NCBI GenBank assembly: GCA_040902535.1
Contig: JBBDXD010000018.1
Location: 62,001-126,000 of the forward strand
DNA: 64,000 nucleotides
Direction: 5' to 3'
Origin: Dehalococcoidia bacterium
GTDB lineage: Bacteria > Chloroflexota > Dehalococcoidia > DSTF01 > JACRBR01
The notes beneath the pieces are model-generated. The model saw only the letters and a program-made list of their open reading frames with translations, was not told where the DNA came from and did not search any database. Shown piece by piece: positions 8,643 to 13,891 of this stretch. Each line of letters starts with the position of its first letter. Positions within the stretch are counted from its first letter, which is position 1. A program made the translations under genes and the position numbers.

Positions 8643-9176
8643 CTATTTGGTCGCGTCGAGGATCTTCTGCGCGTGCTGGGCGTGGTCCTCGTCGTGCACG
8701 CGCTGGAACGCCGCCCACTCGAACACGTCGAGCGGCCCGAAGAAGGGATGATGCGGCTTCGCCGAACGGTCAGCCGTCTCGGGGATCGCGCGGACCGCGG
8801 CGAGCGTGCGCTCGTTGAGCTGTCGAAGTTCTCCGAGCAGCGCCGCGAACGTCGCTCCGTCATCCTCGCGTGACATGCCGATCATGCGCTGCGAGCGTTC
8901 CTTCGTCACACCGGCGGCGTCCATCGTGCCCGCGGAAAGCTGACCGAGCATGCTCGTCAGCCCGCTCTCGGCCGAGACGACGTGCAGCATGAGTTCGCGC
9001 AGCGACCACTCGTCGGGCGCCGGCTTCGTCGACGCGCGTCGCTCGTCGACGTCCCCTAAGGCGGCGAGCAGTTTCACCTGCCCGGCTTCGACGAGTTCAG
9101 CGAGCGCCGCGGGCGATTTCGCTCCCTGGTGCTGGATGTACGAACGGACGCGATCGACGACCTCTTGTGGCAGCAT
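8643..9176 (-). CDS. DinB family protein
   Basis: The 177-residue product starts at ATG 9176. It shows the DinB/YfiT four-helix pattern: PDEWSLRELMLHVVSAE carries the first metal-binding histidine and RVHDEDHAQHAQKIL carries the C-terminal His-x3-His pair. DinB-like proteins are small metal-binding bundles, some acting as thiol-dependent transferases; the function of this one is unknown. It is convergent with ald, with only two bases between them. Confidence 0.85.
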   Translation of the reverse strand: MLPQEVVDRVRSYIQHQGAKSPAALAELVEAGQVKLLAALGDVDERRASTKPAPDEWSLRELMLHVVSAESGLTSMLGQLSAGTMDAAGVTKERSQRMIGMSREDDGATFAALLGELRQLNERTLAAVRAIPETADRSAKPHHPFFGPLDVFEWAAFQRVHDEDHAQHAQKILDATK

Positions 9177-9220
9177 GCGTCGAGCATACGCCCGGTGGCT
9201 AGCGGAAAGCAAGCCACTCG

Positions 9221-9895
9221 TTAGCTTGCGGACGGGCACCGGGAGGAGAGGACGCAATCCGCGCAGCGTGGTTTGCGCGCCCGGCAGACGGTGCGGCCGT
9301 GGACGACTAGATTCACGTGAAGCGTGAACCGTAGGATCTCGGGAACCTGCTTTTGGAGGGCGTCTTGGGAAGCGGTGAGCCGCAAATCCCCGCTGGCGAA
9401 CCCGAGTCGTTTCAAGACGCGGAGGACATGGGTGTCGACCGGAAATACATTTCGGCGGAAGCTGTAGAGCATGACGCATCGAGCGACCTTCTTACCGACA
9501 CCGGGCAAGCTCGACAGGTACGCCTCGATCTCATCATCCGGTAGGGCTTTCAGCCGCCGTAGGTCGATCGACCCTTCTCGCTCGCGAATGACGTCGAACA
9601 TTGAGACGAGACGGCGAGCGCGTTGGTGATAGAGCCCTATAGGACGAAGAACCTCAGCGAGAATGACTTCAGTCTCCGCCGTTACAGACTCCCACCGTGG
9701 AAATAGGGCGCGCAGATGAGCGAATGTGTCTTCCGCGCCAGATTCCGTCATCACGGTGAGGATGATGTAGACGAGTTCGTCTACGGGATCGGATTGATTG
9801 CCGAGGGGAAGGGAATCATGTCCTGGCGAGCCGTACTCCTCCGCGAGCCGATCCGCGATGATCCTAAAGGTCTCGCTGGCCTGGTATTCGATCAT
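9221..9895 (-). CDS. Endonuclease III-like (HhH-GPD) DNA glycosylase, R-M associated
   Basis: The 224-residue protein has the helix-hairpin-helix LSSLPGVGKKVARCVML (the second lysine aligns with the EndoIII catalytic lysine), the catalytic aspartate in FPVDTHVLRVLKRLG, and a C-terminal 4Fe-4S signature C-x6-C-x2-C-x5-C (CRARKPRCADCVLSSRC). The usual LSAQTTD segment is replaced by LTVMTESGAEDTF, so it is not the housekeeping Nth. It is the last gene of the operon with the nuclease and cytosine methyltransferase, 35 bases after the nuclease stop. Glycosylases beside C5 methyltransferases (Mig.Mth, by function Vsr) repair T:G mismatches from deaminated 5-methylcytosine. That role is inferred. 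Confidence 0.85.
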   Translation of the reverse strand: MIEYQASETFRIIADRLAEEYGSPGHDSLPLGNQSDPVDELVYIILTVMTESGAEDTFAHLRALFPRWESVTAETEVILAEVLRPIGLYHQRARRLVSMFDVIREREGSIDLRRLKALPDDEIEAYLSSLPGVGKKVARCVMLYSFRRNVFPVDTHVLRVLKRLGFASGDLRLTASQDALQKQVPEILRFTLHVNLVVHGRTVCRARKPRCADCVLSSRCPSAS

Positions 9896-9930
9896 GCTTG
9901 CCTTATTTGTGATTGTCCACGTAATAGCGG

Positions 9931-10680
9931 CTAAGGAGTCGCGGCGGGGTCATCGTTCTCAAACGTCAAGGTGATAACCGAGGCAATGGTCGGCGGCAGC
10001 GAGTGTTGTGCAAGCAGTTCGGCAATCTCCAATTGCAGCCTCGCTAAACAGTCCTGTCGTGCCTCGACGAGTACAGCCGTTGCATCCGTAAAGTCGCCAA
10101 TCAACGAAAGAATGCTCGGCCTGCCTGTCAACCAGCGCCAGAACGCTGGTCCGACGATGTACCGGTATTCGAAACCTTCCAGATCACGGTTCTCGGTCCG
10201 CGGCCCGCCAGCCGGGAATCTCATCTCACGGTCATCCTCCCTGCCACGCATCACGCCGATCATGGCCTTGACGGGCTGTCGCCTCGCCTGTTGAAAGGTC
10301 CGGTAGCGCTCTACGCGGTCTTTGAGCGCCCGAACCGTCTGCGCCAGCGACGAAGCGTTGAGCGTGTTCGTTTGGCTCTTCTCTTCGATCACCCACAACG
10401 CGCCTTCGCGCTCGGCCAGGAAATCTCCTGCATCGATAACGGCGGGCTCGGCGAGATCTTTGAGTATCCGCTGCCACGTGTGACCCATTGTGGTTTCTTC
10501 GGATGACGATTCGAGCGCCGCAAACGCCTGCTCTACGAACCCGTCCGAGGTCGCCACGCCACGAAGGGCGAACATAAGGACGTCTTTCGACAATAAGTCG
10601 CGTAATCGTTTCGTCCTGTAGAAGTGAAGGCGGCGATCCACATAATCCCGCAGCGCGGCATGAACCGCCTCGTTAGTCAT
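9931..10680 (-). CDS. Putative type II restriction endonuclease (PD-(D/E)XK type)
   Basis: The 249-residue protein has a candidate nuclease core at residues 80-110: IDAGDFLAEREGALWVIEEKSQTNTLN, with an Asp followed by E-E-K after a hydrophobic strand, as in PD-(D/E)XK enzymes. It ends with a helical region. Overall it resembles PmeII-type restriction enzymes, but this is from memory of the family. Position between a C5 methyltransferase and a glycosylase in one minus-strand operon is the main functional evidence. Base composition is visibly less GC-rich than in the flanking genes, consistent with acquisition by transfer. Recognition site unknown. Confidence 0.7.
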   Translation of the reverse strand: MTNEAVHAALRDYVDRRLHFYRTKRLRDLLSKDVLMFALRGVATSDGFVEQAFAALESSSEETTMGHTWQRILKDLAEPAVIDAGDFLAEREGALWVIEEKSQTNTLNASSLAQTVRALKDRVERYRTFQQARRQPVKAMIGVMRGREDDREMRFPAGGPRTENRDLEGFEYRYIVGPAFWRWLTGRPSILSLIGDFTDATAVLVEARQDCLARLQLEIAELLAQHSLPPTIASVITLTFENDDPAATP

Positions 10681-10749
10681 ATCGCGACGAGGTGGGCGAG
10701 AACGTCGTGTCCGCCCGGAACAGCGACAGGATCGTGCGCGCGCCGTTGT

Positions 10750-11940
10750 TTAATGAACCACTCCGGCGGGGAGGCGGCGGCCGTCCAGTTGAACATCGAG
10801 CGCCAAGTCTTGGTCGAAAAACGCGAGAAGCGCATGTCCAATTGCCCGCCCAAGGCCGATTGGAACGGCGTTGCCGATCTGCTTGTACTTCTCGGCGGTC
10901 GGGCCCGCAAATAGCCAATCATCCGGAAACTGCTGTACGCGTGCATACTCGCGCACAGACAGTACTCGATCGTGTTCCGGGTGACAAAGGCTCGTGCCCT
11001 TCTGGATTGGCGTCGCCGGGACGGTCGGTGAGGGGCGTTCAAATGTGAGGCGGCGGAAGAAGCCGACCTTTCCACCGTCCGAGGCGTACGCACCACCGAG
11101 GGCCGCCTTGACAACATCCTCGCCGTACTCACGGAGGTGACGCCAATTGCGACCCGGGGGTATTAGCCGAAGATATTTGAGGCGAGCCTCTGAATACCGA
11201 AGGTACTCAGGTGCCAATTCGTTCAGATCAGAGATCGCGTCGCCGAGCGTCCGCCACTTATACGGCTGCTCGACCGTGGGAGTCTCCGCGTGTGTGGGCG
11301 GGATCAACTCCTGGATCGGCATTCGCTCCGGTAGCCACTTCGCCGCCCCGAACTCGTGATCTCGCGAGCCCAAGAAAATCACGCGTTGACGGAACTGGGG
11401 TACGCCGAAGTTCACCGCGTCGACAAGGCCGTAGACCACCTCATAGCCCAGTTGGTCTTGGAGCCGGTCCATGATGACGGCGAGCGCGGAGCCCGCACGT
11501 TCATCCGGTTCAAGTTGCGGTGAGCCGGCGCCGCGATCCTTCAGTGGGCGATGCCGCACTGCTGCCGAAAGGATGCCACGCACGTTCTCCATCACAAAGA
11601 AGCGCGGGCGAACACCATCGACGATGCGCGCGAAGTCCTGGAACAGCCCACCCCGTACGTCGCTGATCGAGGAGCGCCTTCCGGCCGTGCTGAACGATTG
11701 GCATGGGGGGCCACCGGCAACAACATCGATTTCGCCGTCGACGCCAGACAGTTGCAGGAGTTGGTTGGCCGTGATCTCTCTGACGTCGCCATGGATCAGT
11801 GGTAGGTCTGGGCGATTCGCTTTGATCGTGGCGCAGCTCCAGCGATCGAGCTCGACGGCGGCTACCGTCTCAAAGCCGGCGGCTTCGAGTCCCAAATCGA
11901 GGCCCATGGCACCGCTGAAGAGCGAGATCACACGAGGCAA
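10750..11940 (-). CDS. DNA (cytosine-5-)-methyltransferase
   Basis: The 396-residue product carries the ordered C5-methyltransferase motifs: SAM-binding FSGAMGLDLGLEAAG (I), catalytic GGPPCQSFSTAG (IV), MENVRG (VI), PQFRQRVIFLGS (VIII), then a target-recognition region and REYARVQQFPDDW with GNAVP (IX-X). It modifies a specific DNA site and protects it from the downstream nuclease. The start is TTG at 11940, preceded by AAGGGA eight bases away. A promoter (TTGACG, 17 bases, TAGCCT) and a dyad operator lie just upstream. First gene of the three-gene cassette. Confidence 0.95.
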   Translation of the reverse strand: MPRVISLFSGAMGLDLGLEAAGFETVAAVELDRWSCATIKANRPDLPLIHGDVREITANQLLQLSGVDGEIDVVAGGPPCQSFSTAGRRSSISDVRGGLFQDFARIVDGVRPRFFVMENVRGILSAAVRHRPLKDRGAGSPQLEPDERAGSALAVIMDRLQDQLGYEVVYGLVDAVNFGVPQFRQRVIFLGSRDHEFGAAKWLPERMPIQELIPPTHAETPTVEQPYKWRTLGDAISDLNELAPEYLRYSEARLKYLRLIPPGRNWRHLREYGEDVVKAALGGAYASDGGKVGFFRRLTFERPSPTVPATPIQKGTSLCHPEHDRVLSVREYARVQQFPDDWLFAGPTAEKYKQIGNAVPIGLGRAIGHALLAFFDQDLALDVQLDGRRLPAGVVH

Positions 11941-11997: not shown

Positions 11998-12014
11998 TAC
12001 ACGGAACCGTGTAT
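11997..12014. promoter_or_regulatory. Dyad operator in front of the R-M operon
   Basis: ATACACGG-AA-CCGTGTAT is a perfect 8-bp inverted repeat abutting the -35 box of the methyltransferase promoter and touching the dnaA stop codon. The core TACACGGAACCGTGTA differs at one base from the dyad in front of the XRE regulator gene at 60982, read on the minus strand. A binding site for that regulator is inferred. Confidence 0.7.
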
Positions 12015-13405
12015 CAGCCTGCCGCCGCGACACTTGCTTCCCGCTGCGCTGCCAGGTGCTCCCGCACCGCGGCCAGGTCGTCGGCGGTTTCCGGGCGGGT
12101 CGCCAGTTCCATGCGGATGCGCTCGACGCCTGCAATCACCGTCGAGTGGTCGCGGTTCGAGAACGCACGCCCGATCTCGGCGATCGACTTGCGCGCGTCC
12201 TCCTTCAGCACGAACATCGCCAGGTGGCGCGCGTAGGCGACCTGGCGGTTGCGGCTGCGCCCGCGCAGGTCGGCGGGCTGCGCGCCCGTGCGGCGGCACA
12301 CCGCGCCGATGACATCGTCCGCGCACGGACCTTCGATAACGTGTGAGCCATCGGCGCGGTTCGACGGCTGCAGCGGCGATAGCGCCCGCTCGATGACGTC
12401 GCTCGTCGGTTCGCCGCGCACCAGCGGTATGTAGGCGATCACGCGATTGAGGTAGCCCTCCAGCTCCCGCACCGTCGGGCAGCACTTCTCGGCGATCATG
12501 ACCAGCGCATCGTCGGGGAGCCTTGTGGAATGCTGCGATGCCTTGGCGCGCAAGATCGCCAGGCGCGTCTCGAAGGAAGGACGCTGCAAGTCCGCCGCGA
12601 GTCCCCACTGGAAACGCGACCGTAAGGCGTCCATGAGGGCAAGCTGCGACGGCGGCCTGTCGGCGCTGACGACGATCTGGGCGCCGGCGGCGTGCAGGTC
12701 GTTGAACGCGTGGAAGAATTCCACCTGGAACTTGTCTTTGCCCTCGAAGAACTGCACGTCATCGATCAACAGGACGTCGCAACTGCGGTACCGGGCGCGG
12801 AACCTCTCGATCGTGGCGTCCTTGATGGCGCGCACGTAGTCGTTGCCGAAGCGTTCGGCCGGCGCGTAGATCACCGCCCGTCCGGCGGCGTGCGCCGCAT
12901 GCCCGATTGCATTGAGCAGGTGCGTCTTGCCCAGGCCCGCGGTGCCGAAGATGACGAGCGGCGTGATGGCGCCGGGTTCCGTCGCTGTCTTCCACGCCGC
13001 GTCGTGGGCCATGCGGTTATCGTCGCCGACCACGAAGGTATCGAACGTGAGGGCCGGGTTGAGGGCGGGCGGCACCGCCGGCGATTTGCGCAGGAAGTCC
13101 GGGATCGCCGCCGCGTCGACGTCGGGCAGGAGCGCCGGCGGTTCGTCTTCATGGCGGATGCACTCGAACGTTACGTCCATGGCATGCCCCAAGACGCCGG
13201 CGAGCGCCTTCGTGATCAACTGCTTCATGCGCGCGCTCAGCCACTCGATGGCGAAATCGTTCGGCGCCCCAATGACGAACGCGTGCGGCTCATGGCGCAG
13301 CCCGACCGTGTCCCGCAGCCAGGTGTCGAAGTTCGCGCGAGTAACGGTGAGCTCGAGTTGTCCGAGCACGGCGTTCCATGTCGCCGCCGCAGTCTGCCCG
13401 CTCAT
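12014..13405 (-). CDS. dnaA: Chromosomal replication initiator protein DnaA
   Basis: The 463-residue product has domain I (TWNAVLGQLELTVTRANFDTWLRD), an AAA+ domain with Walker A FGTAGLGKTHLL and Walker B VLLIDDVQFFEGKDK, sensor motifs, and domain IV with SIAEIGRAFSNRDHSTVIAGVERI, which binds DnaA boxes. The start at 13405 (MSGQTAAAT) has GGAG about ten bases upstream; ATG at 13438 is possible but adds an unconserved, Arg-rich leader. The usual neighbour dnaN is absent. The R-M cassette follows instead, suggesting a rearrangement or insertion here. Confidence 0.95.
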   Translation of the reverse strand: MSGQTAAATWNAVLGQLELTVTRANFDTWLRDTVGLRHEPHAFVIGAPNDFAIEWLSARMKQLITKALAGVLGHAMDVTFECIRHEDEPPALLPDVDAAAIPDFLRKSPAVPPALNPALTFDTFVVGDDNRMAHDAAWKTATEPGAITPLVIFGTAGLGKTHLLNAIGHAAHAAGRAVIYAPAERFGNDYVRAIKDATIERFRARYRSCDVLLIDDVQFFEGKDKFQVEFFHAFNDLHAAGAQIVVSADRPPSQLALMDALRSRFQWGLAADLQRPSFETRLAILRAKASQHSTRLPDDALVMIAEKCCPTVRELEGYLNRVIAYIPLVRGEPTSDVIERALSPLQPSNRADGSHVIEGPCADDVIGAVCRRTGAQPADLRGRSRNRQVAYARHLAMFVLKEDARKSIAEIGRAFSNRDHSTVIAGVERIRMELATRPETADDLAAVREHLAAQREASVAAAG

Positions 13406-13891
13406 GAGTTGCGCTCCGCAGTGACGGCGCGGGGGCATGTAATCGACGAGCGGTAACAGGCGCGAATTGACGACACGAAGCCCTCCCGACGGAACCCGTC
13501 CGGTTTGTGGAACACGAATCTTCGGAGACGAAAGCAGTTAGGTTATCCCGAGGCCGACGTCCAATCGCCGGCAGCCGTCCTCACTCGGCACGGTTCCCTC
13601 CCCGCCGGAGGAACGACGCGCGCCCCGTAACGAGCGCGTCGTGTGAGGTGGTGTTGTTCTCCTCAGGACAGGGTGGAGAATACAGGCGCCCTCGGAGGCG
13701 ATCAAGTCCTTTTATGCCAACCTTCGGCCGCAATTTACCCCTATCCATAGCCTTACCAACGACTCCGCGGCATAACAGTTCAGTGTCAACTAGCATGATT
13801 CGCCTGTCCGTTGCGCGGAGCACGCCGCCTCGCCTAACGTACACGCGAAGGATCACATGACAGCCCACAACGCACCCAACGTTACTTCGCA
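13406..13891. other. Gene-free region upstream of dnaA, weak oriC candidate
   Basis: 486 bases without a convincing gene, less GC-rich than the flanks. Near matches (7 of 9) to the DnaA box TTATCCACA occur at 13506-13514 (minus strand), 13543-13551 and about 13741-13749. No clear AT-rich unwinding element is seen. It must also hold the promoters of dnaA and the PAP2 gene. Confidence 0.3.

Follow-up and report, generated by a model that had tools for sequence, protein, structure and literature searches.

A methyltransferase-linked, lysine-type HhH-GPD glycosylase in a restriction-modification cassette of a Dehalococcoidia bacterium

Introduction

Deamination of 5-methylcytosine (5mC) leaves a T:G mismatch that ordinary uracil repair misses, and other C5 restriction-modification (R-M) systems encode Vsr or Mig to deal with it. 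To our knowledge, these two are the only R-M-encoded remedies against 5mC deamination known so far. Mig.Mth (Mig.MthI, from plasmid pFV1) has the HhH-GPD fold with a 4Fe-4S cluster and is partnered with a C5 R-M system; both it and its relatives adjoin C5 methyltransferases (MTases). It belongs to the MutY-side lineage, with A50 and L187 at the specificity positions and Tyr126 in place of the catalytic lysine, a tyrosine that the initial annotation of the locus described here had named and that the pFV1 sequence bears out. Vsr, an unrelated protein, is likewise a repair gene linked to the MTase, and nicks the backbone.

Here we analyze an R-M cassette whose third gene encodes an HhH-GPD glycosylase. 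The protein shares its fold, the 4Fe-4S cluster, a C5 R-M partner and the proposed role with Mig.Mth, but differs from it in lineage and in the residues named above (21% identity in the structure alignment); unlike Vsr, it should remove a base. With Endonuclease III (EndoIII) it has in common the HhH-GPD domain, the catalytic Lys and Asp and the 4Fe-4S cluster. The same Lys/Asp/4Fe-4S core occurs in the 5mC glycosylase/lyases ROS1 and DME, which are plant-specific and combine a split HhH-GPD core with C-terminal domains, whereas the cassette glycosylase is an uninterrupted 224-aa core. The kind of system, an R-M-coupled mismatch glycosylase, would be a known one; what appears to be new is the separate lineage that carries the role.

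Results

A Three-Gene Cassette beside dnaA

The window, that is, the whole 64,000-nt stretch of DNA that was analyzed, spans G000:C18:62001-126000 and contains a three-gene R-M cassette on its minus strand, identified from open reading frames and Pfam matches. The initial annotation had placed such a trio beside dnaA, and all three reading frames are there with Pfam support:

8643-9185, minus strand: DinB-superfamily gene of native GC, downstream and outside the cassette (PF12867, E=3e-12)
9221-9895, minus strand: HhH-GPD glycosylase, 224 aa (HhH-GPD, E=3.6e-9; EndoIII-fold model)
9931-10680, minus strand: type II restriction endonuclease of the EcoO109I family, 249 aa (PF14511, RE_EcoO109I, E=4.5e-9)
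10750-11940, minus strand: C5-cytosine DNA methyltransferase, 396 aa, TTG start (PF00145, DNA_methylase, E=9e-62)
12014-13438, minus strand: dnaA, upstream neighbour outside the cassette (PF00308, E=4e-53)

All three cassette genes exceed the curated Pfam cut-offs (RE_EcoO109I, 36.8 bits against 22.5; HhH-GPD, 37.4 against 26.2). The intergenic gaps within the cassette are 69 and 35 bp, and 73 bp separate the end of dnaA from the MTase start. The DinB reading frame was listed as 8643-9479, opening within the glycosylase gene; its true start is likely the ATG at 9185. The GC content of the cassette is 0.60 against 0.66 for the window, and the cassette genes have a GC3 of 0.68-0.69 compared with 0.87 for dnaA and 0.83 for the DinB gene. 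The low GC3 relative to these two neighbours fits lateral acquisition, which had been suggested from the lower GC; the cassette was probably acquired in this way.

The Methyltransferase and the Endonuclease

The C5 MTase contains motif IV (GGPPCQSFSTAG), PCQ, ENVRG and IGNAVP. It is 44-48% identical to plasmid MTases that adjoin genes annotated as "SinI family restriction endonuclease", and its nearest relatives are the MTases of SinI-type (GGWCC) systems. The nuclease, originally described as PD-(D/E)XK-like, can now be given a family name. Its AF2 model (pLDDT 78) matches EcoO109I with Z scores of 13.1 (1wte) and 12.2, everything else reaching at most 6.0, and the model thus identifies it as a predicted EcoO109I-family restriction endonuclease, with the Pfam family and fold of EcoO109I at ~13% identity over the structure alignment. 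Within the PD-(D/E)XK fold, the alignment yields a candidate catalytic D-x12-E-x-K (EEK; EVK in the relative L111). With an MTase carrying catalytic motifs next to an endonuclease of known family, the cassette is a Type II R-M system by gene content.

SinI recognizes GGWCC and EcoO109I recognizes RGGNCCY. Since the MTase is nearest to the SinI type and the endonuclease to EcoO109I, and the two sites are compatible, the target of the cassette is likely a GGNCC-type site, such as GGWCC, GGNCC or RGGNCCY, as far as these sequence relationships indicate. We rejected site counts in the window as support for the recognition site because GGNCC is seen 225 times against 264 or 325 expected, an expectation too dependent on the model. 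GGCC is also rarer than expected over positions 1-64000 (395 against 553, from overlapping trinucleotide counts).

A second endonuclease of the same type, 46% identical, lies directly before a glycosylase gene in a Dehalococcoidia metagenome-assembled genome (L111); this contig begins inside the endonuclease gene, so that the MTase position falls beyond its edge. Conservation of the trio elsewhere, which the initial annotation had raised, therefore holds in part: glycosylases with R-M genes recur in many phyla, and L111 is the one further case found of the exact EcoO109I-type arrangement, seen there as an endonuclease-glycosylase pair. Similar pairs of a C5 MTase and an EcoO109I-type endonuclease occur without the glycosylase gene (L071, L074, L082, L085), and the gene is therefore an optional accessory of EcoO109I-type systems. 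A tblastn search of plasmids with the nuclease gave no match, single-protein scans of viral contigs with the glycosylase and the nuclease as queries gave none either, and weak nuclease relatives in Chloroflexota had no glycosylase in the flanks read.

Catalytic Residues and Fold of the Glycosylase

The cassette glycosylase has the catalytic Lys136 (in LPGVGKK) and Asp154 (in PVDTH), and a 4Fe-4S site formed by C204, C211, C214 and C220 with the spacing C-X6-C-X2-C-X5-C. The LSAQATD/LSQNTSD segment of EndoIII is replaced by the divergent ILTVMT-ESG, one residue shorter, and the base-recognition motif carries T50 and E51; the lysine, the cluster and the altered segment had all been noticed at the outset. 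The Gln of LSQNTSD is present in 19/19 housekeeping sequences and is changed in the cassette glycosylase and in most of the clade described below. Within this clade Lys, Asp and three of the cluster cysteines are conserved in 36/36 members and the fourth cysteine in 35/36, and Asn195 and Tyr144 are invariant in the clade but not in housekeeping enzymes. Substrate preference is affected by the residue that corresponds to MutY V45 and Mig A50, together with Q182/L187 (PMC2714593). This residue is Asp in all 19 housekeeping sequences and mostly Glu in the clade (some members have Gly, Ala or another residue); the cassette glycosylase has Glu51 there, at a point where the alignment has a one-residue gap.

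The AF2 model of the glycosylase (pLDDT 93.6) is closest to the Deinococcus EndoIII structures (EndoIII-1 and EndoIII-3, Z 24-25, 29-34% identity), its nearest solved relatives, followed by the E. coli and Bst EndoIII (Z 21-23), ROS1 (18-23) and Mig (20.6). At the level of these models, fold comparison does not tell the substrates apart. The only PADLOC model matched is one evidently built on Mig.Mth (533 bits), to which the cassette glycosylase scores 34.7 and E. coli Nth 73.8. Against the NCBIfam EndoIII models the cassette glycosylase scores 117.9 (cut-off 400) and 88.1 (cut-off 211.7), and the clade members tested are likewise below every cut-off, but these cut-offs do not discriminate, since L003, the housekeeping EndoIII of the same genome, also fails them (174.3 and 101.1).

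A Separate Clade of Glycosylases

A scan of viral contigs with the MTase revealed two loci (L070, L073) with a similar glycosylase directly after the MTase, and a scan of a genome collection with the three glycosylases, those of the cassette, L070 and L073, as queries returned 37 loci. One of these, L146, is an ordinary Nth, and the short or partial L143, L144 and L147 were left out of the tree. In the resulting 69-row IQ-TREE phylogeny, 36 proteins from many phyla cluster in a single clade with support of 100/95. It comprises the cassette glycosylase, its two counterparts from viral contigs and 33 more, and within it the cassette glycosylase pairs with that of L111 (99/87). Outside the clade are 23 DR2438-type EndoIII proteins, with E. 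coli Nth further away and Mig.Mth and MutY across 100/100 branches. The clade persists at 94/94 when Deinococcus EndoIII-1 and EndoIII-3 and ROS1 are added. The DR2438-type relatives lie in housekeeping loci, have LSQNTSD and no MTase neighbour in 26 loci, and are separated from the R-M clade in the tree.

The phylogeny with Nth, Mig and MutY that the initial annotation had suggested thus puts the protein in a lineage of its own. Neither of the two outcomes that this annotation had named as speaking against it, a place within housekeeping Nth and a trio confined to this locus, was obtained. The separate clade and the changed recognition motif rule out a housekeeping Nth; Lys136 instead of Tyr, in all 36 members, and the 100/100 tree separation rule out Mig; and the protein is not Vsr, being an HhH-GPD protein without the Vsr fold (PF03852), in a cassette that contains no Vsr. 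A profile of the clade gives plant ROS1 109 bits, on a par with Bst EndoIII, and the spellings RLGW and FPVDT are in common; the tree kinship with ROS1 has support of 67/67, and we do not claim ROS1 as a sister of the clade.

Among 400 Chloroflexota genomes, only the cassette glycosylase and a fused copy in G377 score distinctly above the rest. The genome that harbours the cassette already encodes DR2438-type and other HhH-GPD genes. The first, two-sequence glycosylase alignment gave no matches in viral contigs, and none of six plasmid glycosylase matches that we opened (one of them unannotated) had an intact R-M neighbour. On a Serratia NDM plasmid (L056, 3301-5136) a divergent "nth" with a long tree branch follows the apparent 3' end of a C5 MTase, and similar matches occur in many enterobacterial plasmids. 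We found no reports of EndoIII-type glycosylases in R-M or DISARM systems in the open-access literature.

Linkage to Methyltransferases

The glycosylase clade keeps company with METHYLTRANSFERASES. A C5 MTase is present within the flanks (up to 7 kb) at 17 of 34 genome-scan loci and at none of the 26 housekeeping EndoIII loci (310 kb, Chloroflexota genomes only) that served as control (Fisher test, 6.5e-6), and an N6_N4-type MTase is found at five further clade loci, neither type being present at the control loci (4.8e-8 for either); both P values are indicative, as related loci are treated as independent. The C5 HMM was trained partly on clade loci, and four query proteins served for the N6_N4 control. 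The 34 loci are L111-L145 without L143 and L144, and include L142, a fragment that sits in the clade. The loci were picked by glycosylase peptides, a choice that does not in itself favour MTase neighbours. About one third of the scanned clade members show no MTase, some of them lying at contig ends.

In L112, L115 and the copy from G377, MTase and glycosylase are a single polypeptide. The rest of the neighbourhood differs from locus to locus. In addition to the EcoO109I-like endonucleases, the neighbours are DISARM DrmA and DrmB (L128 and, by sequence clustering, L133 and L139), SNF2 and ParB-like proteins (L070, L073, L112, L113, L115, L129, L131), a DUF2357-PDDEXK_7 protein (L117 and, by clustering, L134), an HATPase (L116), and AIPR/AbiU with a TdeIII endonuclease (L124 and L130, by clustering). 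Because of this variety, the constant partner of the clade glycosylases is the MTase and not a nuclease.

Some arrangements deserve mention in their own right. One island recurs in L070, L073, L112, L115 and L131 (also in L113 and L129) and consists of genes for a C5 MTase, the glycosylase, a sigma-like protein, a ParB-like protein, an SNF2 helicase and a small nuclease-like protein; PADLOC on L113, the single island member scanned, reported only general DpdE/ZorD-like helicase similarity. In L094 (4989-8650) a SinI-like C5 MTase is followed by an unnamed open reading frame, Vsr and an AlkA-like HhH glycosylase.

A Sub-Branch Linked to m4C-Type Methyltransferases

Five clade members (L123, L124, L130, L140, L141) adjoin N6_N4 MTases with an SPP[YF] motif, m4C type as judged by this motif; L141 has a second amino-MTase, with DPPY. 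L121 was counted with them through homology, on account of a TdeIII-like neighbour. The base-recognition motif has Arg in all six m4C-linked members and Thr in all 20 C5-linked ones, a contrast that counts as one event and not as independent evidence, as the m4C-linked members are one sub-branch. The pattern suggests that the substrate of the glycosylase may follow the chemistry of the MTase. Deamination of m4C would not yield T, and plain T:G repair therefore does not explain this sub-branch.

Vsr and the Site after dnaA in a Relative

In G277, a relative from the same family, a different C5 MTase comes after dnaA, with Vsr and an open reading frame of 399 aa that resembles an endonuclease (L225, G277:C66, 2025-6552); R-M systems may use the position behind dnaA as a landing site. 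The genome that carries the cassette has two further C5 MTases, G000:C25 (L221, 3424-5816) and G000:C19 (L222, 3983-5512), one of them with Vsr and the other with neither Vsr nor a glycosylase in the flank examined.

Discussion

The best explanation of these observations, and one that we consider probable, is that an MTase-coupled glycosylase/lyase, recruited independently of Vsr and Mig from the DR2438-type EndoIII branch, does the job of Vsr and Mig, the repair of T:G after 5mC deamination. The cassette would then be a laterally acquired Type II R-M system that brings along a base-excision enzyme as its guardian. Its MTase would make 5mC, the deamination of which to T leaves T:G; the EndoIII-fold glycosylase, through Lys and Asp, would excise T (and/or U) opposite G and nick the DNA where the base is missing, after which base-excision repair by the host would restore C:G. 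We infer the T:G substrate and the lyase activity, like the recognition site, from context. The T:G role is suggested by the company that such enzymes keep: Vsr accompanies C5 MTases in the same genome and, at the equivalent place after dnaA, in G277, and Mig relatives adjoin C5 MTases. The bifunctional plant HhH-GPD glycosylase/lyases ROS1, DME and DML3 remove T from T:G mismatches as well as 5mC (PMC6728418). As these enzymes are of the Lys type, the catalytic lysine is no argument against T:G activity.

It is unlikely that the glycosylase instead acts as a restriction effector, removing a base from the DNA of an invading phage (one with a differing cytosine modification, for example) and nicking that DNA, which would supplement the nuclease with base-excision restriction. 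PabI and Brig3 have folds that differ from that of the cassette glycosylase. Such unrelated glycosylases do serve in base-excision defence, the PabI family (PMC10273834) and Brig3 on 5hmC (PMC13160076) being examples, and members of the clade are found in defence loci (DISARM, SNF2 islands). However, their constant neighbour is an MTase and not an effector set, some are fused to it, and they coexist with complete nucleases.

We regard as quite improbable a ROS1/DME-like 5mC (or m4C) glycosylase that removes the methylated base, either to tune or erase the mark of the host or to attack DNA with wrong methylation. The Lys/Asp/4Fe-4S core, the match of the model to ROS1 with 5mC (7yhp; Z 22.8, rmsd 2.0), the score of the clade profile for ROS1 and a recognition motif that varies with MTase chemistry would all agree with such an enzyme, but excision of the mark set by its own MTase would break the host chromosome wherever a site occurs, and the fusion would be self-defeating; the placement of ROS1 beside the clade is weak (67/67), and the split core and the C-terminal domain are absent. 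It is hardly probable that the enzyme repairs other damage, such as mis-methylated cytosine or U:G, that cytosine MTases produce or that arises in m5C and m4C systems alike. Such repair would explain the m4C sub-branch with its six members, both kinds of MTase acting on cytosine, but the difference in the recognition motif suggests unlike substrates in the two sub-branches, and we know of no HhH-GPD enzyme with such a residue set for such lesions. Very improbable is a redundant EndoIII for oxidized pyrimidines that travels with the cassette by chance, for which the EndoIII fold and residues would speak, given the DR2438-type and other HhH-GPD genes of the same genome, the separate clade, the changed recognition motif and a C5 MTase linkage of 17/34 against 0/26.

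Returning to T:G repair coupled to the MTase, methylating cytosine exposes the bearer of the system to mutation, and the glycosylase would be a third, separately recruited remedy, of the lysine type. A wider proposal, which we put forward tentatively and hold to be possible rather than probable, is that the clade represents a wide and so far undescribed family of glycosylase/lyases derived from EndoIII, which defence systems that methylate cytosine (Type II R-M, DISARM, SNF2/ParB islands) would carry as a standard accessory, with a substrate tuned to the partner chemistry, Thr going with m5C and Arg with m4C, the latter implying an m4C-linked lesion or modified base as substrate. The clade offers a natural set of enzymes for seeing how the EndoIII fold can be adapted to substrates such as T:G, 5mC or those related to m4C. 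If the proposed role is true, guarding against 5mC deamination would be a common design need across many phyla and types of defence.
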